Positions 3 through 23,328 of a stretch of 23,984 nucleotides of DNA are shown here, one piece after another. Under the pieces are notes generated by a model. The model was not told where the DNA came from. It was given only the letters and a program-made list of their open reading frames with translations, and did no database searches. Each line of letters starts with the position of its first letter. Within the stretch, counting starts at the first letter, position 1. The DNA comes from a virus: IMG/VR virus record IMGVR_UViG_3300025138_000351, positions 1 to 23,984 of that record; one strand, 5' to 3'. The translations under genes and the position numbers were made by a program.

Positions 3-1727
3 TACACATTTGCTGATGATGGTGAAAAGGTTTCTATGAATGGAGACCAAAGAAGAACTACAGATGTAAATATTCGTAGATTAATCGGAACTTATGATGA
101 CTTTGTAATGACATCGCTTTCTCTACAAACTAACTCAACTGTTTTTATTGATAAGACACAGAAAGAAAGAAAAGACTTACTTGCACAATTTATGGGCATT
201 GGTGTGTTTGACGATCTTTGGAAATTAGCCGCTGATGAAATACACGATGTATCTTCTCTTCTCAAATCTTTTAAGAACAACAACTACGATACAGATTTAG
301 CTGAAATAAAAGAAAGTCTAACTGATTTTAGAAAAGAATCAAGAGAGTTGACTGTAACTAAGAAAGAAATGGTTGCTGATAAAAAGAAATCAGACAGAAA
401 GATTATAACCCTTACTAAAAAACTTAAAAAAGTTGATGATACTGTCGGTAGTTTAGATGAGTTGGAAGAAAGAAAAGCCAACCTAAATAATACTCTAGCC
501 ACTACAGATGAAAAGTTCGGTAAACTTAAAACTCTTTCTGAGCAATATAAAGTTGAAGAAACTGAACTAACAGAAAAGATAAACATCTACAAAGAAAACG
601 AAGTGGGTAAGAAGTTTGCTCAGTTTGAACAATATAGTTTAGAGAAATCAAATCATCAGATAGAGATAGACAAATTAAAGATTGAAGTTCAACATAAGTT
701 GGATAAGATTGATAAGCTTGGTAATTTAGAACACGATCCTGATTGTACCTATTGTATGAGCAATCCTTTTACATTGGATGCTATAGAAACAAAAGAAAAA
801 CTAAATGAAGATAAGACTTTAGCAGATACTTTTCTAAAGAAATCATCCGAGTTGGATAGTATCATAAATGGTTTATCTCATATTACTGCTCACAAACAAC
901 AAATGGATTCTTGTATAAATAATTTTAACTTACTAACTTCAAACATCAGTAAAACAGATAGTGAACAAAAACTAACTACAGAAAAGAAAAAGAATCTTAT
1001 AAGTCAGTTAGCTATTGTGGAAGATAAAATCAATCTTTATCACGAACAAGAAAAAGATATTTTATTTAACAAAGACTTGTACAACTCTATCGATTCTGAA
1101 CAGAACAATTCTGATAACTTAGAAGTAGAGATAGAAGATTTAGATAAGAAACTACAAACTGCAAATGGTGAGATTAAAGTATTAGAAACCAATCGTAGAA
1201 ACATAATGTCTAATATCAAAAAGGTAGAAGAATTGGAAGGTAAGTATGCAGCTTACCAATATTATATGGATGCTATCAAACGTGATGGTATACCTTACGA
1301 ACTAATATCCAAAGCTCTTCCAACTATTGAGGGTGCTGTAAATGATATATTAGCACAAATCGTAGACTTCTCTATGATATTGGAGATGGACGGTAAGAAC
1401 ATTAATTGTTATATTGTATATGATGATGATAATGTTTGGCCTCTTGAACTAAGTAGTGGTATGGAAAGATTTATATCTTCTTTAGCTATGCGTGTAGGAT
1501 TGATAAATGTATCTAATCTACCAGCAGCTAACTTCTTAGCTATTGATGAGGGTTGGGGAACTATGGATTCAGATAATCTAAACTCTGTTTATAATCTGTT
1601 TCAGTATCTTAAAACTCAGTTTCAGTTTACAATGATTGTTTCTCATATAGATTCTATGAGGGATGCTGTAGATACCCTATTAGAAATTAAAAAAGAAGAT
1701 AACTTCTCTAACGTATTTTTTGACTAG
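3..1727 (+). CDS. 46: Rad50/SbcC-like recombination endonuclease subunit, gp46 family (5' partial)
   Basis: The reading frame is open from base 3, so the ATG at 36 is probably internal and the true start lies left of the window; 574 residues are visible. Numbering from the ATG at 36, a long charged coiled coil (about 85-400) is split by a CxxC zinc hook (C237, C240). The C-terminal ABC half has the signature LSSGMERF (472-479), Walker B FLAIDEGWG (500-508, catalytic D504/E505) and the switch histidine H537 in IVSHID. This is the Rad50/SbcC/T4 gp46 plan. In T4, gp46 pairs with the nuclease gp47 to resect DNA ends for recombination-dependent replication and to degrade host DNA; the same role is inferred here. 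The Walker A motif must be in the missing N-terminus, and a gp47 partner would be expected upstream. The 3' end overlaps the convergent minus-strand gene by 20 bases. Family assignment is very secure. Confidence 0.93.
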   Translation, partial: YTFADDGEKVSMNGDQRRTTDVNIRRLIGTYDDFVMTSLSLQTNSTVFIDKTQKERKDLLAQFMGIGVFDDLWKLAADEIHDVSSLLKSFKNNNYDTDLAEIKESLTDFRKESRELTVTKKEMVADKKKSDRKIITLTKKLKKVDDTVGSLDELEERKANLNNTLATTDEKFGKLKTLSEQYKVEETELTEKINIYKENEVGKKFAQFEQYSLEKSNHQIEIDKLKIEVQHKLDKIDKLGNLEHDPDCTYCMSNPFTLDAIETKEKLNEDKTLADTFLKKSSELDSIINGLSHITAHKQQMDSCINNFNLLTSNISKTDSEQKLTTEKKKNLISQLAIVEDKINLYHEQEKDILFNKDLYNSIDSEQNNSDNLEVEIEDLDKKLQTANGEIKVLETNRRNIMSNIKKVEELEGKYAAYQYYMDAIKRDGIPYELISKALPTIEGAVNDILAQIVDFSMILEMDGKNINCYIVYDDDNVWPLELSSGMERFISSLAMRVGLINVSNLPAANFLAIDEGWGTMDSDNLNSVYNLFQYLKTQFQFTMIVSHIDSMRDAVDTLLEIKKEDNFSNVFFD

Positions 1728-1878
1728 AAAGTAAATTTTTAGGTTTACTCTCTCCTCGTTTAAGACTTAGTACATATTGATTAAGCACTGCGCTCATCGT
1801 AGTGCTTTCTTCTTTAACATATAATCTAAACCAGTCTACTAGCCCTTCATCTATAGTAAATGAATATTTCTTTTTCAT
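1708..1878 (-). CDS. Small ribbon-helix-helix (Arc/CopG-like) putative DNA-binding regulator
   Basis: This is a 56-residue protein. A short N-terminal strand (KKYSFTID) is followed by two predicted helices (about residues 9-23 and 25-42), the pattern of the ribbon-helix-helix fold, in which a dimer inserts a two-stranded sheet into the major groove. I chose the ATG at 1878 because GGAG lies 9 bases upstream (1888-1891). The ATG at 1893 would add five residues, has no good ribosome binding site, and is itself part of that Shine-Dalgarno stretch. It is the only convincing minus-strand gene here, convergent with gp46 (20-base overlap) and divergent from the giant fibre gene. That position suits a transcriptional regulator, possibly self-regulating from the AT-rich gap at 1879-1970. 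The fold is inferred from pattern only; DNA targets are unknown. Confidence 0.68.
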   Translation of the reverse strand: MKKKYSFTIDEGLVDWFRLYVKEESTTMSAVLNQYVLSLKRGESKPKNLLSSQKIR

Positions 1879-1906
1879 ACCGATAATCTCCATATCTTAT
1901 ACATAT

Positions 1907-1914
1907 AATAAATA
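1907..1914 (+). promoter_or_regulatory. Possible T4-type late promoter octamer upstream of the giant fibre gene
   Basis: AATAAATA matches the T4 late-promoter octamer TATAAATA at 7 of 8 positions and lies 56 bases before the ATG at 1971. The whole gap is extremely AT-rich, so a chance match is quite possible. Confidence 0.25.
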
Positions 1915-1932
1915 TAAAAATTTTAAATTATG

Positions 1933-1946
1933 ATATTTATTAATGA
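1933..1946 (+). promoter_or_regulatory. Shared 14-base intergenic motif, copy A
   Basis: ATATTTATTAATGA lies 24 bases before the ATG of the giant fibre gene. It matches the copies at 14645 and 23315 at 12 of 14 positions. The opposite strand reads AATAAATA, one base from the T4 late octamer. This copy lies between the divergent ribbon-helix-helix gene and the fibre gene, so it could serve either as a promoter or as an operator. A ribosome binding site for the fibre gene (AGGA, 1958-1961) follows. Confidence 0.45.
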
Positions 1947-1970
1947 TATCAAATTATAGGAAATATATTA

Positions 1971-4900
1971 ATGAGCATCGTAAAAAGATTCAACAGATTA
2001 CTTGGACTTGAAAAAATAGATGTATTGGTAGATGAGAAGGATAAATCCAGACACATCGTAATTACCGATATACCTGAAAGTCTGCCTCAAGGTAAAAGCT
2101 CTTTTCTTATAGAGGTTTCTCCTTATATGAGAAAGGGAATAGAACTTCAAATAGACTTTATCGACTCAAAAGGTAATAGTATATATGTTGAACCAGTTCA
2201 AAATTATTTAGAAGGTACTTCCAGAACTGTATCGGTTGAGGTATATGATACAGTAGCACCTGGTATTGCTACAATGATAATAGTTGGTGAGTTAGATAGA
2301 TTACCATTAGATGCTGGAAACTATAGTGAAGTAGAAGAAATACCAAAAGAGTTTCAAGGAGTTTATAATGTAAGACTTACCAAAGAATTTATTATAAATA
2401 CTGCTGAAATAAATGTTCAGCCTATAAAATTTTATACATCACCAAGACTTACAGCTGTTGAAAAGCGTTTTGGTACAATGATTAGAGAAGTAGTATCAGG
2501 CGAAACCGTATCTTCTGCATTCAAAGTTAGAGGACAATCAAATATACAACAACAGTATGAGATATTTAATAATCCATCTCAAAATGATGATGCAGGAGAA
2601 GGAGCTGGTGTAACAGAAACACAAGAAAATCAAACACCACCGCCACCTAACGGAGATATTCCAGGTGATGAAGCTGAAAAAGAAAAATTAAAACAACATG
2701 CAAAGAAAAAAAGTATCAGAGGAAATAGTAGATTTAAAAGGTCTAGAAGAATAAGAAGAAGAAATTCACCAGAAGATTTTCCGTATTTTTTTACTATAAG
2801 AGATGACGAACATAGATTTACTACAAAAGAAATCGGCGCAGAAATAAGATTTTCTGCTATAAATACTTCCCTATACAGTCGAGAAGACTTAGATAACAAT
2901 GGTTTAAAAGTTCCTGTTTCTTTCAATGTGGTTACGGATCCGGATGATGAAAACTTTCCAAACCATTACACAGCCTCAATTGCTGAGTTAGATGTTACGG
3001 GTACAACTGCTTATGTGAATACACCATTTACAAAACAAGATGTTGAAGGTAACTATAGAATTTTGAATATGGAAGCTACTGGTAAAACTCATTTTACTCG
3101 TGAGCCATCTGCCTCTTTTAGTCTAACAAACATAGTCTCTTACGCGGATATTACATTAAGTCACCTTAGAACTTTCTCAGGCGAAGTTTTTAAAGCAAAG
3201 GTTTACGTAAGAAGTGAAGGTTCTTTTGACGATTACAAACTATTAGCTGAAGTACCTGTAGAATCTCCTGATAAAATGGTAAATAACAATTCGGTTGGTG
3301 TAGGAGAAAGAACAGGTTATTTTGTTCAAGCCGATTTTCCTACATCTTCATCATATCTATATTGGGATTTATATGGTAGTACAAATGGTTTAACAACAGC
3401 TGCTGCTACATCAACTGCTTCTTATTCTGAAACAGGCACATTAAATGATTCTGTAATGATATCAGGAAGTACATCAGTATTTACAGACCAAATAAGATTT
3501 CAATTAAAAGATGAATACAAATTTGAGTTGAGAAAAAGTATAGATTATACTTTATCTTTTAATGCTATAGGGCAAAAAGATATTGATGGTAGGGCTTTAA
3601 TGCTGGTATATGTTTCTGGCTCTTCTATGGAACAATCAACTGATTTACATAATGATGATGTCACCCAAACTGATGTAGAAGAATCCTCTGCTTATGGTAA
3701 AAGAATGGGAGTCTTAGAAGTAGAATCTACCGATGATACTAAAAAAGATTTTAAACTAGTTACTCATAATTTTAATTCGACTTTAACTGGCGATGCTATA
3801 GTTCAGTTTAGGGTTATATCTGGCCAATGGAACTTATCAGACATATCAGTAGTTCCATCAACGGACACAGGCTTTTCACCAACATTTGTAAATTTTCAAC
3901 AAGAACTATCTCCTGAACTAACACATAAAAGACCTGAAACATTAGAGTTTCTAACAGAGTTTTATGATATAAATAATAATTTGGCAGATGAGATTGCTGT
4001 AACTACAGGTTCTGTATTTACTGGCGCTAATATGGTTATTACAGGAGACGATAATAACATTCCTGGTAGTGTATTTTTAGGTGGAGAAACAACTGCTAGT
4101 GGTATGCAGTTTGGTGGTGTTGACTCAACAATACCTGAAACAGGAGACGATGGAGCTACTGGTTCTGGCTTTATGAGGTCAGTTGGCTATTTGGGATTCA
4201 CATCAGCTTCAGACTCATCGTTGGGTGGTACTCCTGGTTTTATGATTTATAGTGGCTCTGTGTTACCTGGCAGTGGAGAAGATTATGCTGGTGTTGGCTT
4301 AGAGTTGGTTGGTGAAAGTGGTTCTTTAAAGTTTAGAACCAATCCAAGTTTATTTGATGTACAAGCAGATGCTTTTTTTGTAGGAAAAACTTCAACACAA
4401 TTCATAAGTGGTTCAGGAGAAAAAATTGAGATAAGTTCATCTAACTTTCATTTGCAGCCAGGTGGTGATGTCGATATGACAGGAACAATTACTGCAGCTG
4501 CTGGTGCTATAGGTGGTTGGGAAATAAAAGATGGTGATTTAAGGGCTGGTGTAGGAAACTCATCTGTAACAATGAGTGGTGATGAACAATTAATAAGAAT
4601 GGGTAGTGGTTCTACATTTACTGCTGATGAAATAAATGGTGTGTTATTTGGAAGGGATACGGATGGTAAATATAAATTTGGTGTCGGTAAAGGTGGCTCT
4701 TATGTATTCTTTGATGGTGATGTTGTAAATATCGCTTCTGAAGATATTAATGTTACTGCTTCAGTTTTCTCAGTAGATGTCGATCAGTTTAAATTAAGTG
4801 CTACAAATTTATTTGTAAGTTCAAGTCAGGGTGGTTTTATATCTCTTGGAAATCCATTACCAACTGATATAGATGGTACTAATAAAGGTATCTTTATGAA

Positions 4901-7900
4901 AGGTAAGGGTTCTGATAACAAACCAAAATTTTTAGCTGGTAATGCCGCTGGTGGTCATTTGTCATTTGATGGTGATAATGTTTTTATGTCATCTTCTGCT
5001 TTCTTCTTAGGTTCACCTACACAATTCGTAAGTGGTTCATTGGGTAACATAGAAATAAGTTCGTCAAACTTTCATTTAGATAATGAAGGTAATGTTATTA
5101 TGTCAGGCAAAGTAACAGCAGCTGAAGGTGAGATTGGTGGACTTACAATTGGTGATACGAAGTTAAGTTTAGGAACATCATATGAAATATCTTCATCTAC
5201 AAATACTGCCGATCCCGTTTCATTTATATCATCAAGTAATTTCAAAGTATCTGCTGGTGGGCAAGTAACAGCATCAGGTCTTTCATTAGAGGGTGGAGAT
5301 ATCGGTGGTTTAGTTGTAGATAGTGGAGTTATATCAGTAGGTGCTGTTCTAAAACTAAAAGATAGTGGACAGATTACAGGTTCAAAAGTTTTATTTACAG
5401 GTGGAACAATCGGTGGATTTACAATAGATGCAGATGAAATAAAATCAACAAATGTTCTTATAGATTCAGCTAACGAAAAGATTACTTTGGGTTCAGGAAA
5501 TGCTATAAAGTTACAAGGTGGTGCAACTGATAATTTTCTTGCTATGGGAAGTAAGGGTGACTTTGGAGATGAAGGAACAGGAACTGCCGGTATCCTTATC
5601 GGTATGGATGCTACAAATCCACAAGCTGAGTTCGTAAAGAATAGTACTAACTACTTTATATTTGATGATGGTATTGATATACAGACGGATACTTTAAAGG
5701 CTAGTGGTAGTAATATTGTATTAGAAGCTCCTAGATTCTTTTTAGGAAAAAAGACTTCAACTTTTGTGAGCGGTAGTAATGGTAATATAGAAGTAAGTTC
5801 TTCTGCTTTTCATTTAACTCCAGAAGGAAATATAACAGCTAGTAATATTTTATTAGGTGATAAGGGTGGTAGTCAATTCCTACAATTTGCAGATGGTGAT
5901 TTAACCGTTAGAGGAGATTTAGCAGTTGATTCATTATTCTTACCGGCAACTATAGCTGGTGCTACCTCAACACTACTGAACGCTTCTTCGTCTCTTAATT
6001 CAACCGGATTTGCTAAGTTTGTATCAGCATCAATAGGCGGCTTTGTAGTAGATTCTTCACAAATAAATTCTGCTAATAATAACATAGTTTTAGAAGCTGA
6101 TGGTGGGGCTACTATTAGTGGTAGTTCTATAAATTTACAAACTCCTAAGTTCTACTTTGGTGAAACGGATAATTTCATAAGTGGTTCAGAAGGTAATATA
6201 AGAATATTTAGTACTGGTGATACTACACTAAGTGGTAGCTCTATTACTCTATCTACTCCAAAATTCTTTATGGGGGAATCATCTCAGTTTATAAGTGGTT
6301 CAAATGGAAATATAGAGATAAGTTCTTCTAAGTTCCATTTAAAGCCAGATGGTGATATAATAGTTAGAAAAGTAAACGCAGATGAAGGAGAAATCGGTGG
6401 TTTTGAAGTAGGTTCTTCACAGATATCAAGTTCGACTGGTGGTCTTATATTAAAATCAGACGGACAGATTACAGGCTCTAAATTTTTATTATCTGGTGGT
6501 AAAATTACAGCTGATGTGACTATTGAAGGTTCACTCGCGGCTAATTCAATATCTACTCCTGCTGATGGAACTAAATTAGCAGAAATAACAGATGCTGGTT
6601 TTGCTAGATTCGTTTCTGCTTCAATTGGTGGGTTCGATGTTAGCGACAGTCAAATAAATTCAACAAACGATGCATTAATTTTAAAATCAAATGGTCAAAT
6701 TACAGCATCAGCAGTTTCGATGTCTGGTACTGTTACAGCAAACGCGGGTGCAATTGGTGGGTTTAAAATTAATTCGAGCACAATAACTGCTACTAATTTT
6801 ACATTAGATCCTGGCAATAACTCACTAACACTTGGTAGTGGAACAAATATTTTTATAGCTGATGGTGATGTTGGTATTCATTTAGGACATGGAACTTTTG
6901 GTTCAGCACCATTTAGTGTTACAAAAGCTGGTGTTCTAAAGTCTACTAGTGGAACAATTGGTGGATGGAGCTTGTCTGCTAACAGATTTAACGATAGTGG
7001 TGATAATGTTAGAATCGACAGTAATGCTGGTTCTATATCAATTAAAAATCATACATTTGGACAAGCAGGTCTTCAATTAGAACATAATAGTGGAACTTCT
7101 AGATTTTACGCAGGTGATGGTTCTAATAAACATTTAAAATTTGATGGTAGTGATGTTGATATTAAATCTGCTAAATTTGAATTAGACGCAACCAATGTAG
7201 AAATATCGTCAACACACGCTTCTATGAGTTTAGGTGAGGGTAAGATTAGATTGATTGGTGCTTCCACTTCTACTATGACTCTTGGTACAGGAGCTTCATC
7301 GGTTACGATGTCAGCTGATGGGAGTGATACTCTTATTGCTATGGGAGACAAAACAAACTTTTCTTCAGAGGGTAGTGGAACTGGAGGTATTCTTATCGGA
7401 ATGGATAACACCAATCCACAAGCTGAGTTTGTTAAGAACTCATCTAACTATTTTATATTTGATGATGGAATAGATATAAAAACAGATACATTTAATTTAG
7501 ATACTACAAACTTAGATATAAACTCAGCTACTAAAAGGATTGAGGTTTCCGATGGTAGTAATGTAAGAGTTAGAATAGGTGAAGTTGATTCTACTTCAGC
7601 TAATCATTTTGGTATAACAATTTATGACGGAACAGGAACAGCCGCTTCCGATGAGATAGTTCATCTAAGTGATGCTAAAAATCAAATAGCTAGTTGGTCA
7701 TTAAGCCCTAATCAAATATCAAGTCAAAATTTAGTTATCCATTCTTCTGGTAGATTAGAAACTGCTGATTTTGCTAGTGGTGTAAAAGGATGGAGAATAA
7801 CTTCGGAAGGTAATGGTTCTGCAGAATTTGAAAATGTTAGTATTCGTGGTACATTAAAGACTACTGTATTTGAAAAAGAAACTGTAAATGCTGTAGGTGG

Positions 7901-10900
7901 TCAGTTATACATTGCTAACTCAACTGTAACAACAGGCTCTACTGCTTTAGCTGCTAATGCTACTACGATGAGTGTTGTTAATGTTAGTGGGTTTGCTGCA
8001 GATGAAATTTTAGCAGCAAAGAAAATAAGTTCTACTGGATTTGCTACAGAGTATATGTTAGTTCAAAGTTCTTCTAGAGAAGAACCATCTAGTGATACTA
8101 ATTTTGCTGGAAACCTTCATTTAATTAGAGGTTATAGGAGTGGAAGTTTAGGTGAATCAGGTTCTCTTGGAGATAGGTCGAATATATCACAGTCATATGA
8201 GCCAGGTCAAGTTATTATATCAACTGGAAAAATTGGAACTGGTTTCATTAGATTAAACGCTAATCCAAATGACCAAACTACTCCTTATATGGATATTGTT
8301 GAAAGAACAGGTAGTGGAGTTTATGATGTAGATTTAAAGGCTCGTTTAGGAGACTTGAGTGGATTGAGTAGTGGATTGTTATTTGGTAATGCTACACCAG
8401 GGTTTGGTTTATTTACAGAAAATGTTTTCTTAAAAGGAGCTTTAACTGCTACAACAGGTTCGATAGAGGGAATACTTCATGTTAGAACTGATTTATCAAA
8501 TCAAGTAACAATAGGAACTAATGTAAGAAATACGTTAGATGGTATCCACATAAATGATAATAACTTTTGGTATACCAACGGACATTTTAGAACAGGATTT
8601 GATAGTGACAATTTTATACACCAATCAGGTTCTGCTCTAACTATAAAATCAGAAACCTTTGCTTTAAAGGGTGGAACTACTTTAATATTAGATAGTAGCA
8701 CACCTAAATTAGTAATGGGAAGTAGTGCTGCTTCGGTAACAGATACGGATAATACTGGTATCTATATGGATGGTAGTGGCAAGTTTAGGGTTGGTGAAGA
8801 TCAGGGAAGTGGTGATAACTTTATTTACTTTAATGGAACTACCATACAGATGAAATCAACAGTATTTGATTTGGTTGCTGGTTCTACTCTCGTTATTAAT
8901 AGTTCTACTCCTAAGATTGTATTGGGTGCTAGTGCTACTGGACAAAGTTTGACTAGTGGAACTGGTATATTTATGAATGGTAGTGGACATTTTAGAGCTG
9001 GTAAAGCTGGTCATGGTAGATTAGAATGGGATGGAACTAATGTATATGTGAGCTCATCAGGATTTTTCTTAGGAAGTGATTCACAATTTATAAGCGGTTC
9101 TTTAGGTAATTTAGAAATAAGTTCATCTGCTTTTCACCTAAGTGGTGGTAATACTATTATGTCAGGTAAGGTAACATCCGCTGAAGGTAATATTGGTGGT
9201 TTTGATATAGCGGCCGCTTCAATAACCAGTCAAGCTGGTGGACTTACATTGAATGCAGATGGTGGTATAACTGGTTCTAGATTTAGATTAACGGGAGGTG
9301 TTATTACTTCTGATGTAACAATTTTAGGTGATTTATCAGCTAATAGTATAGCAACACCCTCTAGTGGAGATATACTAGCTCGAATAACCGATGAGGGATT
9401 TGCACAATTTATATCAGCTTCAATTGGTGGATTTGATGTTGATGGTAGTCAGATAAATTCAATAAACGATGCATTAATTTTGAAATCAAGTGGCCAGATT
9501 ACAGCATCAGCTGCTCAGATATCAGGAAATATAACCATCACTGGCGGTGATTTAGCTGGAGTAAGCGCAGATACAATTAGTGGTTCAGCCGCAGAAGTGT
9601 CAGCTTCTTTAGCTAGTAGACAAACTCCTTATGAAACTCAAGTTTCACTTACTTCAGCTGGAATGTCTTTGAACAAAGCAGATGGAACGAGTGTAGCAGA
9701 TTACGGAGATACAATTAGAATTGGTATAGATGCTAATAATGAGTCTAGAGTTGAGATTGATAACGATTCAATGGATTTTATAACTGATAGTTCAGGGACA
9801 GATACAACACGTGCTACCTTTGGAGCAACATCGGTAATTGGTACTTCAGCCGACAAAGTAACTATCAGCGATAGTGGAATCACACTCACAGAAAATAGTG
9901 TTGACAGTATTTTATTGGCTAGTGGTGCTGTAACATTAAATGGGGCTAGTACGGATGACCAAGTAGTTATAAACGCAAGTGGTGTAACCATAAAAGAAGG
10001 TGGTACTGTAAGAACAACATTGGCTGGCAACAAACTTACGCTTGGTAAAGCTGATGATAATAGAATAGAGATTACAGATAGTACTTTTAGTTTATACGAA
10101 GGTTCTGTTGAAAAGGTATCTATTGGCTCATCCGATGTAAAAGTTTTATTTGACTCCAACAACTACTCTCAGATGGATGCTGATAGTTTTGATGTTGTCT
10201 TAGGTGGACAAACCTCTGCTTCATTTGGAGCAACCACAACAATCGGTCCGACAGGTGGAAGTCACGTATCCATAGATTCCCAACAAATATCGGTAAAGAG
10301 AGGAACAACAACTTTCTTATCAGCATCAGCTGCTGGTTTAGATATGAGTGGTTCTATAAAAGCTAGTGGTGGTACAATCGGTGGATTTACCATTGGTACA
10401 AACAAAATTGAAAGTGCTACAGGTGGTGATACTGTAAATTATACTGTAACTGCAAATGGTTCTAGTAATTACCTTATAGATGGAGTTGCTCAACCAGCAC
10501 TTACTCTTATAGTTGGCAACACATATGTATTTGACTTTTCAGATGGCTCTAATGGTGGTCACCCATTTAGAATAGGAACATCAGCAAATGGTAGTGTGAT
10601 TACAGATGGTATTACAATAACTAGCTCTGCACTTACAATTGTTGTAACGGCTAGTACACCGACATCGCTTTACTACTTTTGTACCTCACATAGTGGTATG
10701 GGTAACTCTATATCGGTTACAACCGCCACACCATCTCTTATATTAAATGGTTCTAACGGGCAGATAACTGCTTCTGCGGTTTCAATGTCCGGAATGGTAA
10801 ATGCCAGTTCAGGACAGATTGGTAACTTTGCTATAAGCAGTAATAATTTACAAGGTGGAACTACCTTTCAATTAAATCCAACTAATAATAGTGGTGAGAT

Positions 10901-13900
10901 TAGAATGGGTGCTAGTTTAGGACCAAACTCAGCCGATAGTACAACTAGAGGTATATACTTAGCTGGTAGTGGAGAATTTGGTTTAATTGAAAGCGCAACT
11001 AATAGAATATTTTCAGATGGTAATGGTCTTGACATACGTTCAGATACATTTACTTTAGACGCTACTACGGTTTATCTTGATAGCGCAACACCGTCATTAA
11101 GATTTGCAGCTGATGCAAGTGCTCATTCTTATAATGCTGCTGAAGGTATATTCATCGGAAAAAATAGTAGTAAATATAAGATGTCAATAAAAGGAGGGGC
11201 TAGTGATAATTCTTTAGTTTGGGATGGTGATAGCTTAACTATAGCAGGTAGTATAACAATTACAGGTGGAAATGCTGCAACTAATGACTATGCAAAAGGT
11301 GTTGCATTGGGAGCTGAAGCATCAGCATCTGCTTATGGTGCTGGAGCAGTCGCTTCAGGTTCTGCTTACGGTGCTGGAGCAGTCGCTTCAGGTTCTGCTT
11401 ATGCAGTTGGAGCAGCTGCATCTGCTAGTGCGGCTCAAACAACTGCTAATACAGGAGTTTCAAACGCAGCAACTGCTCAAGCAGCAGTAGATGTTATTGA
11501 AACACGAGTTGTAATTGATAATGATGGTATGTCTTTGAATACAGCTGCTGGCGTTAGCGTAGCAGATTATGGAACTACAACAAGAATAGGTTTAGCTGCC
11601 GATGCTAGAACAGAAATAACATCTACTGCTATTAGTATGTATTCCGGAAAAGTATCTGGTACATCTTACAAAAGAGTTGCTATTGACAATACTGGAAAAA
11701 TAGCTATAGGTGGAGCAGTCGGTGCTGATGTTTCAATTTCGACAACCGATGATGTGATTAGAATTGAGCCAGGTACCGGTATAACTATATTTGATAGTAA
11801 TGCTGATAAGTTACTTCTTAATAGTGATGGTATGACATTGACAGAAAATAGTCAAGTCAGAGCAATATTTGGAGCAGTAACCGCAATTGGAAGTGCGGGA
11901 GCGGCTGTAACCACAACATCTACCGATGATTGTATAAGAATTGCCGATGGAACTGTTAGTATTTTTCAAGATAACAACAATAAGGCAGTTGTTAATTCGA
12001 GTGGATTAACTATAACACAAGGTGGAGTAGATGTTGGAACATTTGGTTCAGATACTGTAATAACAGGTGGAACATTAACATTACGAAGTACAGGTGGAAC
12101 AACAGGCCACGAAAGAGTCGTTATAGAAAATAATTCTATATCTATGTTCACTAATAACGCTGAGGTTTTTGATGTGACTGGTGGTGTTGTTACAATCGGA
12201 AGCTCAACAGATAAAGTAACTATTAATGGAACTAGTGGAATTACTATCAAAGAAAATAATAAAGATAATATATCTTTGGTAGATGGTACAATAAAAATTG
12301 GTGTTGATGAAAATGACTCAACATTCGTACAGATAGATAGTGATTCGGTAGACATAATAGAGGATGTGAGTGGAACAAATACTACAGTAGCTTCGTTTGG
12401 ACTAGCAACAGTAATAGGACCCGTAGCTAATGAAAAATCAAGAATAGAATTAGGTAGTGGAATAGTTAAAATAATTAATAGAAATGGTAGTGGAACAGAC
12501 GCGACTGCAATACAATTAGCCGCTGATGGAACTGCTACATTCACAGGAGATGTTACTGCTAATACTGGAAGATTTGGTGGTACTACTGGTTGGGTAGTAG
12601 GTTCAAATAAATTAACATCAAACGCTGGTAATATAGCACTTGATGCGAACGCAGGTGATATAATTGTTGGTACTGGTGCTGATATAGTAAGGCTATCTGG
12701 CACTGGTGATGTTAGAATTTCTGCTGGTAATCTTACACCAGCAAGTGCTCCATTTCAAGTTAGTAAAGAAGGAGCGATGACTGCTACTGCTGGAACTATC
12801 GGTGGATTTACTATAGGTTCAACTACACTAACTGCTACTAATTTCACAATAGATGTAACTAGAAAATCTATTACACTTGGAAGCGGTGATGATGTATTCG
12901 TAGCTGATGGTGATGATGGAATACAACTAGGAGATGCTACATTTGCTGATGCTCCATTTAGTGTAACACCCGCTGGTGTTTTAAAAGCACAATCAGGAAC
13001 AGTTGGTGGATTTACTTTAAGTAGTGATGATTTAACTGCAACAAATTTTACATTAAGTCCAAGTGGTAAATCAATAACACTTGGTAGTGGAACAGATATT
13101 TTTGTAGTAGATGGGGATGTAGGTTTACAATTAGGTCATGGGACATTTGCTTCAGCTCCATTTAGTGTTACTAAAGCTGGTGTTTTAAAAGCTATATCAG
13201 GAACTATCGGTGGTTGGACATTGAGTTCAACAACACTTACAAAAAACAATATAACCTTAGATTCTTCTAATAAATTGATTGATGTAGGAAGTGATTCAGA
13301 TTTTAGATTAAGACTAAAGGAAAATAATGGTGAACCATTTTTAAGTATAGGAAATAATGACACCTATGGAAATGCTGGTATATTTATGCAAGTTATTGAT
13401 TCTGCTGGTGATAAAAGACTAAAATTTTCTGTAGTTGATCCTCTTACTGGACAATTTATTAAATTGACCACTTCTGGTGGACTTACATTTAGTGGACAGT
13501 CAGCAACATTTGCAGGCAACATAACTGCAAACGGAAACATTGTAGGTGATGGTAGTACTGCTATATCAAGTATGGCTTCATTGGGTATTGGTTCAGTAAC
13601 TGCAACTGGAACAATTCAAGCAGAACAAATAACATCAACCGATGATATTGCAGTACCTGCTACAGGAAAAATAAATTTAGATGGTGCTGGTGGTCATACT
13701 TACATTCAACAAAGTTCCAGCGATGTATTGGATTTCTATGTCGGTGGTGATAATATGTTGAAGATTGATGAGGGTAATAACACCACAACTTTACAAGGTA
13801 ATTTAATCGCAGCTAATCCTAAGTTTTTTGCGTGGAAAAGTTCTGACCAAATAATTTTAGAAGATGCTGACCGTACTATAATATTTGACACAGAAATATT

Positions 13901-14252
13901 TGATGTGGGGGCTGATTATAACGTTTCCAACGGAATTTATACAGCACCAGTAAGTGGTAAATATAACTTTTCAGCACAAATTAGAATTGACCTATTAGAT
14001 ATTGATGCTAATGAAATACGGATAAGCTTAGTCACAAGCGATGCTACTTACAGATCACCTTTTGATCCAAATTTCTCAGGAGATTTAACTACTTATTCTT
14101 ACAATATAAATGTTCTTGCGGATATGGATGCAAATGATACTGCTTATATTGCAGTTTTTGTAGCTGACGATAGAGGTAATAGTACACACGTACATGGATT
14201 TAATAATGTAAGTTTCATAGATACTTTTTTTAGTGGTCACTTAGTAGTTTAA
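1971..14252 (+). CDS. Giant repeat-built fibre/appendage protein with cupredoxin-like insert and C1q-like tip (4093 aa)
   Basis: The start is supported by AGGA 9 bases upstream. Residues 1-220 are non-repetitive and probably the virion-attachment end, followed by four prolines (223-226) and a basic stretch (about 239-264). Residues 265-700 look like beta-sandwich modules. From about 800 the chain is repeats: fifteen IGG[FWL] units, six F[IV]SGS units (811, 1019, 1265, 1402, 1440, 2373) and three 68-residue units. A segment at about 2100-2156 (TPYMDIVERTGSG, then FGLFTENVFLKG) resembles one I recall from phage tail-tip proteins. A cupredoxin-like domain (2821-2920), an Ala/Gly/Ser segment (about 3105-3160) and a C1q-like end (3951-4093) follow. 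It is about three to four times longer than T4 long-tail-fibre subunits (gp34, about 1290 residues; gp37, about 1030). The expected role is host recognition at the tip, with repeats as a trimeric shaft; this is inferred from architecture. A secreted-adhesin role is unlikely, as no signal peptide is seen. Confidence 0.85.
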   Translation: MSIVKRFNRLLGLEKIDVLVDEKDKSRHIVITDIPESLPQGKSSFLIEVSPYMRKGIELQIDFIDSKGNSIYVEPVQNYLEGTSRTVSVEVYDTVAPGIATMIIVGELDRLPLDAGNYSEVEEIPKEFQGVYNVRLTKEFIINTAEINVQPIKFYTSPRLTAVEKRFGTMIREVVSGETVSSAFKVRGQSNIQQQYEIFNNPSQNDDAGEGAGVTETQENQTPPPPNGDIPGDEAEKEKLKQHAKKKSIRGNSRFKRSRRIRRRNSPEDFPYFFTIRDDEHRFTTKEIGAEIRFSAINTSLYSREDLDNNGLKVPVSFNVVTDPDDENFPNHYTASIAELDVTGTTAYVNTPFTKQDVEGNYRILNMEATGKTHFTREPSASFSLTNIVSYADITLSHLRTFSGEVFKAKVYVRSEGSFDDYKLLAEVPVESPDKMVNNNSVGVGERTGYFVQADFPTSSSYLYWDLYGSTNGLTTAAATSTASYSETGTLNDSVMISGSTSVFTDQIRFQLKDEYKFELRKSIDYTLSFNAIGQKDIDGRALMLVYVSGSSMEQSTDLHNDDVTQTDVEESSAYGKRMGVLEVESTDDTKKDFKLVTHNFNSTLTGDAIVQFRVISGQWNLSDISVVPSTDTGFSPTFVNFQQELSPELTHKRPETLEFLTEFYDINNNLADEIAVTTGSVFTGANMVITGDDNNIPGSVFLGGETTASGMQFGGVDSTIPETGDDGATGSGFMRSVGYLGFTSASDSSLGGTPGFMIYSGSVLPGSGEDYAGVGLELVGESGSLKFRTNPSLFDVQADAFFVGKTSTQFISGSGEKIEISSSNFHLQPGGDVDMTGTITAAAGAIGGWEIKDGDLRAGVGNSSVTMSGDEQLIRMGSGSTFTADEINGVLFGRDTDGKYKFGVGKGGSYVFFDGDVVNIASEDINVTASVFSVDVDQFKLSATNLFVSSSQGGFISLGNPLPTDIDGTNKGIFMKGKGSDNKPKFLAGNAAGGHLSFDGDNVFMSSSAFFLGSPTQFVSGSLGNIEISSSNFHLDNEGNVIMSGKVTAAEGEIGGLTIGDTKLSLGTSYEISSSTNTADPVSFISSSNFKVSAGGQVTASGLSLEGGDIGGLVVDSGVISVGAVLKLKDSGQITGSKVLFTGGTIGGFTIDADEIKSTNVLIDSANEKITLGSGNAIKLQGGATDNFLAMGSKGDFGDEGTGTAGILIGMDATNPQAEFVKNSTNYFIFDDGIDIQTDTLKASGSNIVLEAPRFFLGKKTSTFVSGSNGNIEVSSSAFHLTPEGNITASNILLGDKGGSQFLQFADGDLTVRGDLAVDSLFLPATIAGATSTLLNASSSLNSTGFAKFVSASIGGFVVDSSQINSANNNIVLEADGGATISGSSINLQTPKFYFGETDNFISGSEGNIRIFSTGDTTLSGSSITLSTPKFFMGESSQFISGSNGNIEISSSKFHLKPDGDIIVRKVNADEGEIGGFEVGSSQISSSTGGLILKSDGQITGSKFLLSGGKITADVTIEGSLAANSISTPADGTKLAEITDAGFARFVSASIGGFDVSDSQINSTNDALILKSNGQITASAVSMSGTVTANAGAIGGFKINSSTITATNFTLDPGNNSLTLGSGTNIFIADGDVGIHLGHGTFGSAPFSVTKAGVLKSTSGTIGGWSLSANRFNDSGDNVRIDSNAGSISIKNHTFGQAGLQLEHNSGTSRFYAGDGSNKHLKFDGSDVDIKSAKFELDATNVEISSTHASMSLGEGKIRLIGASTSTMTLGTGASSVTMSADGSDTLIAMGDKTNFSSEGSGTGGILIGMDNTNPQAEFVKNSSNYFIFDDGIDIKTDTFNLDTTNLDINSATKRIEVSDGSNVRVRIGEVDSTSANHFGITIYDGTGTAASDEIVHLSDAKNQIASWSLSPNQISSQNLVIHSSGRLETADFASGVKGWRITSEGNGSAEFENVSIRGTLKTTVFEKETVNAVGGQLYIANSTVTTGSTALAANATTMSVVNVSGFAADEILAAKKISSTGFATEYMLVQSSSREEPSSDTNFAGNLHLIRGYRSGSLGESGSLGDRSNISQSYEPGQVIISTGKIGTGFIRLNANPNDQTTPYMDIVERTGSGVYDVDLKARLGDLSGLSSGLLFGNATPGFGLFTENVFLKGALTATTGSIEGILHVRTDLSNQVTIGTNVRNTLDGIHINDNNFWYTNGHFRTGFDSDNFIHQSGSALTIKSETFALKGGTTLILDSSTPKLVMGSSAASVTDTDNTGIYMDGSGKFRVGEDQGSGDNFIYFNGTTIQMKSTVFDLVAGSTLVINSSTPKIVLGASATGQSLTSGTGIFMNGSGHFRAGKAGHGRLEWDGTNVYVSSSGFFLGSDSQFISGSLGNLEISSSAFHLSGGNTIMSGKVTSAEGNIGGFDIAAASITSQAGGLTLNADGGITGSRFRLTGGVITSDVTILGDLSANSIATPSSGDILARITDEGFAQFISASIGGFDVDGSQINSINDALILKSSGQITASAAQISGNITITGGDLAGVSADTISGSAAEVSASLASRQTPYETQVSLTSAGMSLNKADGTSVADYGDTIRIGIDANNESRVEIDNDSMDFITDSSGTDTTRATFGATSVIGTSADKVTISDSGITLTENSVDSILLASGAVTLNGASTDDQVVINASGVTIKEGGTVRTTLAGNKLTLGKADDNRIEITDSTFSLYEGSVEKVSIGSSDVKVLFDSNNYSQMDADSFDVVLGGQTSASFGATTTIGPTGGSHVSIDSQQISVKRGTTTFLSASAAGLDMSGSIKASGGTIGGFTIGTNKIESATGGDTVNYTVTANGSSNYLIDGVAQPALTLIVGNTYVFDFSDGSNGGHPFRIGTSANGSVITDGITITSSALTIVVTASTPTSLYYFCTSHSGMGNSISVTTATPSLILNGSNGQITASAVSMSGMVNASSGQIGNFAISSNNLQGGTTFQLNPTNNSGEIRMGASLGPNSADSTTRGIYLAGSGEFGLIESATNRIFSDGNGLDIRSDTFTLDATTVYLDSATPSLRFAADASAHSYNAAEGIFIGKNSSKYKMSIKGGASDNSLVWDGDSLTIAGSITITGGNAATNDYAKGVALGAEASASAYGAGAVASGSAYGAGAVASGSAYAVGAAASASAAQTTANTGVSNAATAQAAVDVIETRVVIDNDGMSLNTAAGVSVADYGTTTRIGLAADARTEITSTAISMYSGKVSGTSYKRVAIDNTGKIAIGGAVGADVSISTTDDVIRIEPGTGITIFDSNADKLLLNSDGMTLTENSQVRAIFGAVTAIGSAGAAVTTTSTDDCIRIADGTVSIFQDNNNKAVVNSSGLTITQGGVDVGTFGSDTVITGGTLTLRSTGGTTGHERVVIENNSISMFTNNAEVFDVTGGVVTIGSSTDKVTINGTSGITIKENNKDNISLVDGTIKIGVDENDSTFVQIDSDSVDIIEDVSGTNTTVASFGLATVIGPVANEKSRIELGSGIVKIINRNGSGTDATAIQLAADGTATFTGDVTANTGRFGGTTGWVVGSNKLTSNAGNIALDANAGDIIVGTGADIVRLSGTGDVRISAGNLTPASAPFQVSKEGAMTATAGTIGGFTIGSTTLTATNFTIDVTRKSITLGSGDDVFVADGDDGIQLGDATFADAPFSVTPAGVLKAQSGTVGGFTLSSDDLTATNFTLSPSGKSITLGSGTDIFVVDGDVGLQLGHGTFASAPFSVTKAGVLKAISGTIGGWTLSSTTLTKNNITLDSSNKLIDVGSDSDFRLRLKENNGEPFLSIGNNDTYGNAGIFMQVIDSAGDKRLKFSVVDPLTGQFIKLTTSGGLTFSGQSATFAGNITANGNIVGDGSTAISSMASLGIGSVTATGTIQAEQITSTDDIAVPATGKINLDGAGGHTYIQQSSSDVLDFYVGGDNMLKIDEGNNTTTLQGNLIAANPKFFAWKSSDQIILEDADRTIIFDTEIFDVGADYNVSNGIYTAPVSGKYNFSAQIRIDLLDIDANEIRISLVTSDATYRSPFDPNFSGDLTTYSYNINVLADMDANDTAYIAVFVADDRGNSTHVHGFNNVSFIDTFFSGHLVV
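6495..6728 (+). repeat. 78-residue duplicated module, first copy
   Basis: This 234-base in-frame block aligns without gaps to the block at 9294-9527. Shared landmarks are DVTI, ANSI, TP, ITD, GFA, SASIGGFDV, SQINS, NDALILKS and GQITASA. It carries one IGGF unit. Confidence 0.8.
6753..6956 (+). repeat. 68-residue IGGF...SAPFSVTKAGVLK repeat, isolated copy
   Basis: This 204-base unit starts at IGGF (residue 1595). Its landmarks are TATNFT, LGSG, ADGD, LGHGTF and APFSVTKAGVLK. It has exactly the length of the two tandem copies at 12798 and 13002, about 6 kb downstream. Confidence 0.82.
9294..9527 (+). repeat. 78-residue duplicated module, second copy
   Basis: This is the partner of 6495-6728, equal in length and 2799 bases downstream in the same frame. 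The two copies delimit a larger segment that could be lost or gained by homologous recombination. Confidence 0.8.
10431..10730 (+). other. Cupredoxin-like domain encoded inside the fibre gene
   Basis: Residues about 2821-2920 differ from the surrounding repeats: NYTVTANG, then LIVGNTYVFDFSD, then GGHPFRIG, and finally YYFCTSHSGMGNSI. The His, Cys-x2-His, Met order (H2864, C2904, H2907, M2910) is the type-1 copper ligand set of plastocyanin-like cupredoxins, with a shorter His-to-Met spacing (x2, against x4 in plastocyanin). The domain lies between an IGGFTI strand and an LILNGSNGQITASA strand that are contiguous in ordinary repeats, so it looks like a clean domain insertion. Copper binding is not shown; the fold may be purely structural or bind a receptor. 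Confidence 0.7.
11328..11426 (+). repeat. 33-base tandem repeat coding an Ala/Gly/Ser/Tyr segment
   Basis: Units 11328-11360 and 11361-11393 differ at one base and encode SAYGAGAVASG twice. A diverged third unit (11394-11426) encodes SAYAVGAAASA. The low-complexity peptide is probably a flexible or collagen-like linker in the fibre. The near identity of the first two units suggests recent slippage or unequal exchange. Confidence 0.9.
12798..13205 (+). repeat. Two tandem 68-residue repeats (12798-13001 and 13002-13205)
   Basis: Two adjacent 204-base units encode [IV]GGFT, TATNFT, ITLGSG, DG[DV], QLG, APFSVT and AGVLKA in fixed register, and are followed at 13206 by the IGGW that would open a next unit. 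Equal lengths imply a strict structural repeat, as in a beta-helical or triple-stranded fibre shaft. Confidence 0.82.
13821..14249 (+). other. C1q-like C-terminal tip domain of the fibre protein
   Basis: Residues 3951-4093 are non-repetitive. The pattern IFDVGADYNVSNGIYTAP then SGKYNFSAQI fits the F-N-x-G-x-Y...G-x-[FY]-T-[AV]-P-x-[ST]-G-x-Y-x-F core of the C1q/TNF-like jelly roll, and the length (143 residues) suits it. C1q domains trimerise and bind ligands, so this is the likely receptor-contacting end. Confidence 0.75.
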
Positions 14253-14644: not shown

Positions 14645-14658
14645 ATATTTATATATGA
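14645..14658 (+). promoter_or_regulatory. Shared 14-base intergenic motif, copy B
   Basis: ATATTTATATATGA is identical to the copy at 23315-23328 and sits 18 bases before the start of the 1250-residue fusion gene. The minus strand contains an exact TATAAATA (14646-14653). Twelve of the bases around it form a TATA-TTTA-TATA inverted repeat. Confidence 0.55.
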
Positions 14659-14676: not shown

Positions 14677-17600
14677 ATGGATAAACTTACAGAATTTTTA
14701 ACAAAACCATTTCTAAACGAAGGAGCTAGAGATCCTGGCATCTTCAAAGCTATCTTTTTAGCTGGAGGACCTGGCAGCGGTAAATCATTCGTAGCACAAA
14801 AGCTATTCGGTATACCTGAAAAGGTAAACGTATCTAAGACTGGTTTAAAGATGGTAAATCAAGATAACGAACTTGAACTTCTGTTAAAAAAGTATTTCGG
14901 AACAACAGACATTGATAATATGCCTGATGAGTTATTTGCTGACCTAACAGGTGTAGATAAAAAAGGTAAACCTGTAGATTACGACACAAGTGGATTAAGG
15001 AAGTTTGCTAAATCATTAAGTAAGGAAAGATTAAGACTATACACCAATGGTAAGTTAGGTGTTATCATAGATGGTACAGGACATAACTTTGGTAAGATTA
15101 AAAGAAGAAGAAAAGAATTAACGGATTTGGGTTACGATACCTATATGGTTTTCGTAAATACCTCATTAAAGATTGCTAGGGAAAGAAACGAAAAAAGAGA
15201 TAGGGTTGTACCGGATGCTATCGTTGAAAAAAGTTGGGAAGATGTTCAAGGTAATTTGGGTGCCTTTCAAGGTTTATTCGGTGGTTCTAACTTTATGATT
15301 GTTCAGAATAATAAGATGTTATCGGATTCTCAAATAACTAAACATTTTAAGATGTTGGTTAGTAAGGGTATAGATACCTTTTTAAAGAAACCAATTAAGA
15401 GTAAGGTTGGTAAAGCTTGGTTACGAAGAGAAAAGAAACATCAAAAGATATTTAAGAATCCAGGCCAATCTCGTTTCTTTGAATCCATAGAAGTTCCTGT
15501 CGAAATAGGCGATACAGTTCTTATGGGTAGATTTAAGAATAAAAGGGTAGTTGTTAAGTCTATAGATTATAACGAGAAAGGAGACTTACTTATCAATGGT
15601 AGGACTGCTTTAAAATTTAGAATAATGAAAAAAGATGAAGCCGCTAGAGTTCCTCGTAAGAAAGGACAACATCGTGGTTCTAAGTCTCATTCAGATTTAT
15701 ATACGGATGAAAATCCAAAAGGAACAATAAAAGGATTAAAGTTTGCTACGGTTAAGGATGCAAAAGCATCGGTTAGTAAGATAAGTGGAAGTGGTAAAAA
15801 GCACGCACATAAGATACAAGCTGCTGTAGCTATGGAACAGAGAGCTAAAGAGATGGGTAAGAGTTCGGAAGCAGCTGTCTATAGAGCTTACATCAATAAG
15901 ATGAAGAAAAAAACCAAAGCTAAAAACGAAGAGTTTGGTGCACCTGCTGGTACATTACCATCACCAAGTCGTAAGATGGTAAAGAAGATGAAGAGAAAAG
16001 GTAACACTTCAGTTCCTTATGGTAGTGGTTATAAGAAAGTAAATGAAAATGATAAAGCTGAGTTATACAAATTGTATAGTATGGGTATGAAAGCATTTTC
16101 TGGTAGTGCTAAACATAAAGAAATACTAAAGAAGATAAAAGTTTTAAGAAAAAAATTAGGTATGAATGAACAAAAAGAAATCAAAAAAACCATCGGTGTA
16201 TTCGGTGGAAGATTTCAACCATTTCATTCAGGACATCTAGCAACATACAATTGGTTAAAGACACAAGTAGATGAGGTTTATATAACCACAACAAACATTA
16301 AACAACCACCAAGACATCCTATGAACTTTAAAGAAAAAGTTTCTCATATGATTAAGATGGGTATTCCTAAAAATCGTATCATTATGGAAAAGTCTCCTTA
16401 TATAGCAAAGAATCTATTAAAGAAATTTAATAAAGATACGACTGCTGTAGTATATGCCGTTGGCAAAAAAGATGCTGGTAGATTGAAGGGTGGTAAATAC
16501 TTTCAAGATTACAAAAAAAGTAAAGGTAGTATTAAAGGATACGAAGAAAATGGATACATTATGAGTGCTCCAAAATTCGGTTCGGTTAGTGGAACGCAGA
16601 TGAGAAAACTTTTAGGTGACCCGAAACTTGATGATAGTGATAGGGTAAAAGCATTTAAAAAAGTATTTGGATATTATGATAAAAGTGTGTATACTATGAT
16701 GACTAATAGTTTTAAAAAGTTATTTGAGTCTTACGATTTATCAGACGAACTGATTGAAGAGTTTTTGATGGAATCAAGCGATACTTCTGCAGGAAACTTA
16801 GACGATGGTCCTTCTACATTTTATACAGATTATCCTACATACAAAAAGACTTCTAAGGAGTGGTTAGATTCTATCTATTCAGATGCAGGGTGGAAAGTCG
16901 TTAATTATATTTTGGATGATAATGCTAAAAATACTATAGAAAAAAATTATCATTCAGTTCCACTTACCTTTTTAGACCACGGGCAAGCTAATGGTTCAAC
17001 ATCAGCCGTAACTAAGTATAAAAAATGGATGAGTGAAGTTATAAAACCCTTGGGTTGGAAAGTGGTTAACTGGATGGGTACTGAATCCGCTATAAATAAT
17101 ATAATAGGTTCTTTATTCGCAGCTGGTGCTGATGGGGATTCATACGATATTGAATCACTTTTTGAAAAGATAAATTTAGACAAAGAGGTTAGTTTATTAT
17201 TAGAAGGTGGTGCTTATGGTCATTTAAATCATCCGTTTGATGATAAAAATTTAACGTTTTCAGACTTTAAGACACTAATTATTAATACACTTCAAGGTAA
17301 TCTTGATAGTGAAGGAGCAGTTACAGAAAAAACGGATGGTCAAAACATAATGGTTAGTTGGAAAGGTGGAAAACTTTTAGCTGCTCGTAACAAAGGACAC
17401 ATTAAGAATCACGGAGCTGGTGCTTTAGATATCAATGGTATTAAGAGTATGTTTAGTGGTAGAGGTGATATTGAAAAAGCATTTGTATATGCTATGAGAG
17501 ATTTAGAAAGAGCCGTAGGTAAACTTAGTGATGGACAAAAAACAAAGATATTTGATGAAGGAAAGAAATTTATGTCGTTGGAAGTTATATATCCAAAGAC

Positions 17601-18437: not shown

Positions 18438-18968
18438 ATGGGATATAGTAAAGAAGCAGAAAGACAAAATAAAGCATTAGGAGACCTATTAGCTGGTAGA
18501 ACTCCTGATAAAAGAGTGATGGTTGGTTACAAAGGTAAGGAACAAGATAGTGGTGACCAAATCAGTAGAATGACTGATATTATGAAGGGAGCTAGAATGC
18601 CTATGTTTTGTCCGAAGTGTGATGTCATTATGAAGAAAAAATTAGATGATAAAATGTGGTCATTATTTGGACATTGTTTTGATTGTCAGATTAAGATGGA
18701 AAACAAACTTCGTATAGAAGGTGGGTATGAAGAATGGGCTGAAGAAAAGATTAGAAGTAATAAGATTGCATTTATTAAAGACCAAATACAAGCTATCTCA
18801 GAGTGGAGAGATTCAAAGGCTCCGGAATGGTTTAATAATGTCGGTGTTAATACTCCTGAGTTGGAAAAAGAAAAATGGGATATTGATATGAAAAAGGTTA
18901 AAAGAGAAGCTGAAGAAGCTTTAAAAAAGTATACCGAAGTTTTAGAACAATTGGAGAGTAACGTATGA
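18438..18968 (+). CDS. Zinc-ribbon protein of unknown function (176 aa)
   Basis: I do not recognise this family. Two CxxC pairs, C58-x2-C61 (FCPKC) and C80-x2-C83 (CFDC), spaced by 18 residues, make a treble-clef or zinc-ribbon site very likely. The N-terminal 55 residues are polar with GYKGKEQDSGDQ. The region after the ribbon is helical and strongly charged, with EEWAEEKIRSNK, EWRDSKAPEWF and a Lys/Glu-rich coiled coil to the end. The ribosome binding site AGGAG (18428-18432) overlaps the stop codon of the fusion gene, and the gene's own TGA overlaps the next start in ATGA, so translation is coupled on both sides. Its place just ahead of the terminase could suit a packaging or assembly accessory such as a small terminase, but nothing specific to gp16 is visible. 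Another possibility is a nucleic-acid-binding regulator. Confidence 0.75.
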   Translation: MGYSKEAERQNKALGDLLAGRTPDKRVMVGYKGKEQDSGDQISRMTDIMKGARMPMFCPKCDVIMKKKLDDKMWSLFGHCFDCQIKMENKLRIEGGYEEWAEEKIRSNKIAFIKDQIQAISEWRDSKAPEWFNNVGVNTPELEKEKWDIDMKKVKREAEEALKKYTEVLEQLESNV

Positions 18969-23306: not shown

Positions 23307-23314
23307 GTAATCAT

Positions 23315-23328
23315 ATATTTATATATGA
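23315..23328 (+). promoter_or_regulatory. Shared 14-base intergenic motif, copy C
   Basis: ATATTTATATATGA is identical to copy B at 14645 and lies 28 bases before the next start. It is embedded in a perfect inverted repeat, CATATA-TTTA-TATATG (23312-23327), and its minus strand contains an exact TATAAATA (23316-23323). Confidence 0.55.

Follow-up and report, generated by a model that had tools for sequence, protein, structure and literature searches.

A small ribbon-helix-helix gene beside the SbcC gene of uncultured T4-like phages: a candidate self-limiting repressor

What does a small ribbon-helix-helix (RHH) gene that lies alone on the minus strand of a phage genome control, and through which DNA sites? 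The question is raised by the window analysed here, a 23,984-base virus fragment from IMG/VR that has many close relatives in the same collection. The window's phage is T4-like: it encodes a T4-type portal (PF07230, E=9.5e-76) and a T4-type terminase (PF03237), and the nearest annotated phages by portal identity are Flavobacterium phage immuto (54.3%) and Microcystis phage Mel-JY01 (53.5%). The RHH gene is convergent to the SbcC-like part of a recombination nuclease gene (36-1727, plus strand; phrog_77, E=2.5e-21), which it overlaps by 20 nt; in relatives, SbcD and SbcC form one fused frame (SbcDC). On its other side it is divergent from a gene for a 4093-aa protein (1971-14252, plus strand; ORF list and synteny). 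The original prediction had placed the RHH gene between replication and structural genes; its position between SbcC and the 4093-aa gene was borne out, while the structural nature of the latter gene is something that we infer. The 4093-aa protein contains repeated stretches, and the long antisense open frames in its gene are probably not genes. Elsewhere on the plus strand, 14677-18429 encodes a protein of 1250 aa in which an AAA/zeta-toxin-like kinase part is joined to a cytidylyltransferase-like one, and 18965-19270 encodes a small coiled-coil protein with a weak match to Rz-like spanins.

The open reading frame at 1708-1893 of the minus strand is real and, on our reading of the ORF list, is the sole plausible minus-strand gene of the window, as had been proposed. 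We assign the RHH (Arc/CopG-like) regulator gene to 1708-1878 (minus strand) on the basis of homologues, phrog_3180 and predicted fold. The protein probably starts at the ATG at 1878, which gives a 56-aa form, because the ATG at 1893, to which the listed frame reaches, is not conserved (it is absent in L014, L038, L201, L220, L222, L227 and L236) and because GGAG, the probable ribosome-binding site (1888-1891, minus strand), sits 9 nt ahead of the ATG at 1878. Among 30 unique leaders, obtained from 35 sequences that include the window, GGA is present in 30 and the last G in 28. The frame has 34 relatives in IMG/VR, and the gene order is the same in 34/34, with SbcC convergent and a large gene of the 4093-aa type divergent (in L020 the large gene is only partly on the locus). 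In three loci (L023, L024 and L026), identity to the window is 77-79% for the RHH protein, compared to 33% for SbcC and 26-28% for the divergent protein over the aligned parts; the RHH gene either is unusually constrained or has moved between phages within its slot. A literature search, in sources that were available in part, did not turn up this gene slot, which is not proof of its being unpublished.

The prediction that the gene encodes a DNA-binding protein was upheld by a profile match to the 'Arc-like repressor' family phrog_3180 (E=1.4e-5 to 1.5e-5). Pfam returned sub-threshold matches only for the window's protein, and a distant RHH protein from the same slot in another phage (type II, L210; see below) passes PF10723. 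An AlphaFold model built from a diverse alignment has helices at residues 11-23 and 28-42 with a mean pLDDT of 81.5; the strand of the fold is not assigned in this monomer, and an earlier model built from closer sequences was a single helix. When the model was compared with the PDB, the top matches were RHH proteins (probability up to 0.99, best E=0.055, none at E<=0.001), the nearest being CopG, ParG and CdbA, with Arc further down. A sequence search of solved structures gave one meaningless match, and direct profile comparison with the single sequences of P22 Arc and Mnt gave a poor match. No homologue was found by tblastn in named phages; immuto has no match to the window's RHH profile, and Mel-JY01 has a weak one (E=0.01) and none to phrog_3180. 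A strand-helix-helix DNA-binding fold is thus supported by computation, as a model.

To the original prediction, the gene stood beside one copy, A, of a motif that also occurs as copies B and C. The motif is indeed present, and the gap between the RHH and the 4093-aa genes holds not one copy but two, each facing its own gene: ATATTTAT at 1908-1915 (minus strand; motif scan, direction and position) before the RHH gene, and ATATTTAT at 1933-1940 (plus strand), which relatives retain whether or not they have the RHH gene, before the 4093-aa gene. Scanning also places a box, ATATTTATATATGA, at 14645-14658 (plus strand), before the gene that starts at 14677 and presumably the former copy C, and another, ATATTTATATATGA, at 23315-23328 (plus strand), in the 23312-23327 site of the original prediction and before the gene that follows the portal. 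A one-mismatch copy lies inside the terminase gene (21232-21245, plus strand). In eight related genomes, namely six IMG/VR relatives and the two named phages, several of them close to one another, ATATTTAT followed by ATATRA is a directional, promoter-like element that precedes genes by 12-70 nt. When ATATTTAT itself was counted at this distance from gene starts, with simple ORF calls of our own, 101 sites point in the direction of the gene versus 15 against it, out of a total of 321 sites in the eight genomes. ATATTTAT outranks all 54 other letter orderings tried in 7/8 genomes, the exception being immuto, where the shifted forms TATATTTA and TATTTATA score above it. In six genomes, 16/17 sites of the full form ATATTTATATATG precede a gene and point towards it, and no site before a gene points the other way. 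The same six genomes yield 59 promoters, with the RHH promoter excluded, which share ATATTTAT and a looser ATATRA; upstream of the box they have an A-rich patch and nothing strong, that is, no -35-like element. Mel-JY01 has copies (0-2 mismatches) at 41-45 nt upstream of its portal homologue, of its tail tube gene and of four further genes in this region that are unnamed. Immuto contains another Arc-like RHH gene elsewhere (L164:48910-49123), with a ATATTTATATATA box 31 nt before it.

The motif exceeds chance in position and direction, and neither in its symmetry nor in how often it is present: the window contains 30 sites within 3 mismatches of ATATTTATATATRA versus 28.04 expected. Because of these direction and position data, and of a likeness to T4 late promoters that is set out below, it looks like an ordinary promoter element of this phage group, as judged from sequence, and by analogy the box promoters are probably late-acting. 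The late sigma family phrog_234 was not found in five IMG/VR fragments or in Mel-JY01, and immuto gave only a match at E=0.008; the sliding clamp family phrog_223 was found in G001 and G002 only, out of 7 records searched. The motif can be used for annotating this phage group, and calls for caution before such copies are named operators. The CATATA/TATATG repeat that had been taken for an operator is there letter for letter at 23312-23327, and its symmetry looks incidental: at up to 2 mismatches, the window contains 3 copies of CATATA-N4-TATATG versus 3.04 expected in shuffles (an expectation that covers the single perfect copy together with imperfect ones), and the outer C of the palindrome is present in only 10/59 related promoters. 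The inverted repeat was rejected as an operator, being at chance level in the window.

That the motif has a life apart from the RHH gene was seen in a survey of SbcC loci collected through a distant SbcC alignment. At least 80 loci were found, from which L296, which ends at SbcC, and L264, which is too short, were dropped. Among the 78 loci listed, some of them near-duplicates, and with slot types assigned by eye, 18 have an RHH gene of the window's type (type I), 6 of type II and 4 of type III, and 50 have no RHH gene; the same slot can hold other RHH types. Among these loci, ATATTTAT lies on the plus strand within 450 nt after SbcC in 18/18 type I, 6/6 type II and 3/4 type III loci and in 44/50 loci without an RHH gene, while the chance expectation for such 450-nt stretches is roughly 8% (321 sites in about 1.9 Mb of strand). 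Therefore, relatives retain the motif and lack the gene, which is an outcome that the original prediction had named as refuting it; Mel-JY01 retains the motif too, with no convincing homologue. Given this result and the directional occurrence of the motif before many genes in eight genomes, the copies are probably not operators of the RHH protein, and the proposed control of structural units through copies A, B and C is not supported. Self-regulation, the other half of the proposal, is supported by computation, not through the shared motif but through an element of the gene's own leader.

This proposed operator is an 11-bp element present twice in the RHH promoter and leader, 22 bp apart; outside this leader, the pair occurs neither in the window nor in six relatives. 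The upstream copy, TATATGTATAA (1897-1907, minus strand; leader conservation and pair scan), follows directly after the promoter box, and the downstream copy, TATCGGTATGA (1875-1885, minus strand), which is identical in 29/30 unique leaders, overlaps the start codon. The leader is strongly conserved. The stretch TATCGGTATGAA is identical in 29/30 unique leaders, with G for A in the remaining one; one of the six peptide patterns by which loci were found covers this place, with all synonymous codons allowed. Among the 18 type I loci listed that were found through SbcC and not through the RHH protein, 14 have TATCGGTATG exactly. With the upstream ATG as the start, positions -7, -4 and -1 would fall on third codon positions; they are fixed in 30/30, unlike most third positions of the gene. 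A comparison with the leaders of other genes, for which the upstream ATG was taken, is not used as a control, several of its high-scoring leaders probably being within other genes. Directly after the RHH box stands TATATGTAYAA, whose TAYAA columns agree in 27-30/30 unique leaders; the corresponding positions in the 59 other box promoters carry 0.2-0.3 bits, with the caveat that aligning the boxes on ATATG instead of their start puts the first TAYAA column at a generic position that carries 0.97 bits for A. The pair TATMKGTAYRA-N11-TATMKGTAYRA was found at the RHH leader in 7/7 records, with 0-1 mismatches in 6 and 3 in G008, and all its matches elsewhere in those records have at least 3 mismatches. 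Within the window, the RHH leader is its sole good match; copy C differs from it at 4 positions, and no match of up to 4 mismatches falls at copy B. In L226, the upstream copy reads TATCGGTATAA, like the downstream copy, so that both copies are TATCGGTAT.

The two copies resemble each other modestly. The best self-match of the window's leader is at 9 bp and is not significant (p=0.073 in shuffles); over 39 related leaders, the mean self-match at 22 bp is 6.64/11 compared to 6.46/11 at 9 bp. Alleles L225, L235 and L237 are without TATCGGT, and the first ten residues of the L235 protein are those of L226, which keeps TATCGGT. The type I repeat is weak, and autorepression of the window's gene is a reading that such leaders suggest.

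Type III leaders are much clearer. A follow-up covered 80 of 131 type III stretches; a convergent SbcC relative is present in 80/80 of these listed loci, and leaders were readable in 65/80, of which 52 are unique. Among the loci listed, 49/52 unique leaders contain AAAGAAAACTAA, at up to 2 mismatches, two or three times, versus 3.4% of dinucleotide shuffles with two or more, a figure that flatters because the element was defined from the same leaders. The spacing, which depends on that definition much less, is 10, 20, 30 or 40 bp in 101/103 pairs, and the distance from the box start to the first element is exactly 10 nt in 48/50 leaders with both box and site, again among the loci listed. Such phased leader repeats support autorepression for type III, as far as sequence can. 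For type II, periodic repeats were found in the leaders of L231 (at 22 bp, 0/300 shuffles) and L240 (at 11 bp, p=0.003), and none were found in those of L228 and L238 by the same shuffle test.

In type III phages, the element also appears at a second place. Thirty of the 80 records (2.41 Mb), chosen for their long flanks, were scanned with ACTAAAGAAAACTAAA at up to 1 mismatch, which gave 45 matches versus 0 for the reversed control: 26 in the RHH leader, 18 at 3.3-4.3 kb on the other strand and 1 elsewhere. This 16-base form was used because the short one, exact AAAGAAAACTAA, tried on six records and rejected, gave 14 matches with 2 strays (G014:45714 and G016:11178), and 4 with the reversed control. 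The single match elsewhere, a type III-like element outside the two usual places, is at G014:196084-196099. All 18 distal sites fall within the last codons of the same gene upstream of SbcDC; as read from the letters, SbcDC comes directly next in 14, and another gene lies between in 4. The exact 12-base element was found 54-57 nt before SbcDC in 5/7 type III loci and also in L264 and L296, which stop short of the slot, while type III loci L275 and L279 are without it and all other loci compared have at least 2 mismatches. The other 12 of the 30 records contain the same gene end with at least 2 mismatches to the element; ten of them have a changed peptide, and two (G024 and G038) encode the same ELKKTKEF peptide with other, synonymous codons. 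GAA GAA CTA AAG AAA ACT AAA is the same in 16/17 unique SbcDC-side sites. An argument from frozen codons was dropped because the sites were picked by the element, which fixes five of the seven codons, and because G024 and G038 keep the peptide with other codons; this made SbcDC as a target less probable and, slightly, the preferred reading as well. The SbcDC-side copy is therefore common to many type III phages and not universal, and could be either an operator in some members of the clade or a coincidence that they share in a coding sequence. Since the site is broken in 12/30 records, twice by synonymous changes, SbcDC as a second target in part of the type III phages is only a lead from sequence. 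No type I element was found near SbcDC in the relatives scanned. Type I relatives have almost fixed codons at the start of SbcDC and at the end of the preceding gene (L124:16450-16490 and homologues), where there is no RHH element.

A terminator-like hairpin lies within the RHH gene on the SbcC strand (1783-1807, plus strand), one of 3 terminator-like sites around the RHH gene region versus 0.3 in shuffles. It is not well conserved: three wobble pairs of the stem are kept in 15/30, 17/30 and 20/30 sequences when G-U is judged on the RHH strand and in 20/30, 19/30 and 20/30 when judged on the SbcC strand, and some stem was found in 16/29 loci by a scan that had no shuffle control. A terminator embedded in the RHH gene at this place is unproven. 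Upstream of the RHH promoter, within the first part of the 4093-aa gene, lies another terminator-like hairpin (2046-2078, minus strand).

Binding to short repeated sites and repression of their own genes are common among RHH proteins, CopG and Arc being examples. We consider it moderately likely, from the leader sequences, that the window's gene works in the same manner. It would be transcribed from its own box promoter, and its product would form a dimer, as expected from the family. The dimer would bind the two directly repeated 11-bp elements, whose 22-bp separation is about two helical turns. One bound element would lie directly after the promoter box and the other would overlap the start codon just after the ribosome-binding site, and the bound protein would curb its own synthesis, probably late in infection if the box promoters act late. 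Type III would follow the same layout, which there is much clearer, with SbcDC a possible second target in part of the phages. For the window's gene, autorepression is the best reading, though less certain, because it occupies the slot that type III does, under the same promoter, and its paired element is arranged similarly. As this promoter and that of the 4093-aa gene lie within 80 bp of each other, the structural genes might conceivably feel the bound protein as well. If this is true, uncultured T4-like phages use a tiny self-limiting repressor between recombination and structural genes, distinct proteins fill the same place within the group, and the predicted operators stated here can be tested.

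Other readings of the leader have to be weighed against self-limitation. The conserved block could be merely a translation-initiation signal or an RNA element, with the protein acting elsewhere, e.g., on host genes. The invariant block does contain the ribosome-binding site and the start codon, the type I repeat is weak, and the nearly fixed codons at the type I SbcDC start suggest that start regions may be constrained for other reasons. This explanation leaves aside that the fixed positions extend to TAYAA, ahead of the ribosome-binding site, unlike in other box promoters, that the window scored below the gathering threshold of every Rfam family, and that the repeats of type III leaders are phased; we consider it somewhat unlikely. 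The repeats could instead serve another phage factor, e.g., a middle-promoter activator, whose box could lie before SbcDC, where 18/30 type III records have the element (54-57 nt ahead in the loci measured). In RHH leaders, the copies come after the promoter box, which fits a repressor, and the SbcDC-side copy is not kept in 12/30 records, which makes such a factor improbable.

A little more improbable is control of the structural units by binding of the RHH protein to copies A, B and C of the shared AT-rich motif. The gene is divergent from the 4093-aa gene with two boxes within 80 bp, and copy C fits the paired element with 4 mismatches; yet the motif is directional and precedes many genes, is retained in 44/50 slots without an RHH gene and in Mel-JY01, which has no convincing homologue, and the RHH-specific pair is absent from copy B. 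Many antitoxins of toxin-antitoxin pairs use RHH folds, the predicted fold of the window's protein is one that antitoxins such as ParD share, and the gene could be an orphan of this kind; this is most unlikely, as SbcC and the large divergent gene flank it in 34/34 loci, which leaves no room for a small partner gene, and no toxin gene was found in its operon in any of the 34. Self-limitation through the leader, our preferred reading, can also be extended to a swappable brake slot: an RHH repressor facing SbcDC, repeatedly replaced by very distant RHH types, each with a phased operator in its own leader, would turn SbcDC down at the onset of the late programme, and in some type III phages would do so through an operator in the last codons of the gene before SbcDC. 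We regard this extension as doubtful.

Among known systems, the plasmid copy-control repressor CopG (1b01; 1ea4 with 22-bp DNA) is a small RHH protein, like the one described here, and the best fold match; it autoregulates through a site in its own promoter. Here, the gene belongs to a phage, with direct elements 22 bp apart, and no plasmid replication gene was recognised among ten window proteins scanned. P22 Arc and Mnt are likewise phage RHH repressors, the PHROG family of the window's protein is named Arc-like, and the annotated operators of Arc and Mnt overlap divergent promoters. P22, however, is temperate, and Arc and Mnt act on ant, whereas the present gene lies in a T4-like phage between SbcC and a large divergent gene, and no antirepressor gene ant was found beside it (34/34 loci). 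A T4 late promoter has its short AT box about one turn ahead of the transcription start. T4 late promoters, as described in the accessible part of PMC2988020, have an 8-bp TATA box followed by an AT-rich stretch and no -35 element. The putative promoters of the window's phage group resemble these gp55-dependent promoters, so far as that text goes, in the 8-bp AT box, in the AT-rich stretch just downstream and in the lack of a -35-like element beyond an A-rich patch, and differ from them in the box itself, which here is ATATTTAT, a motif that immuto and Mel-JY01 share with the window.
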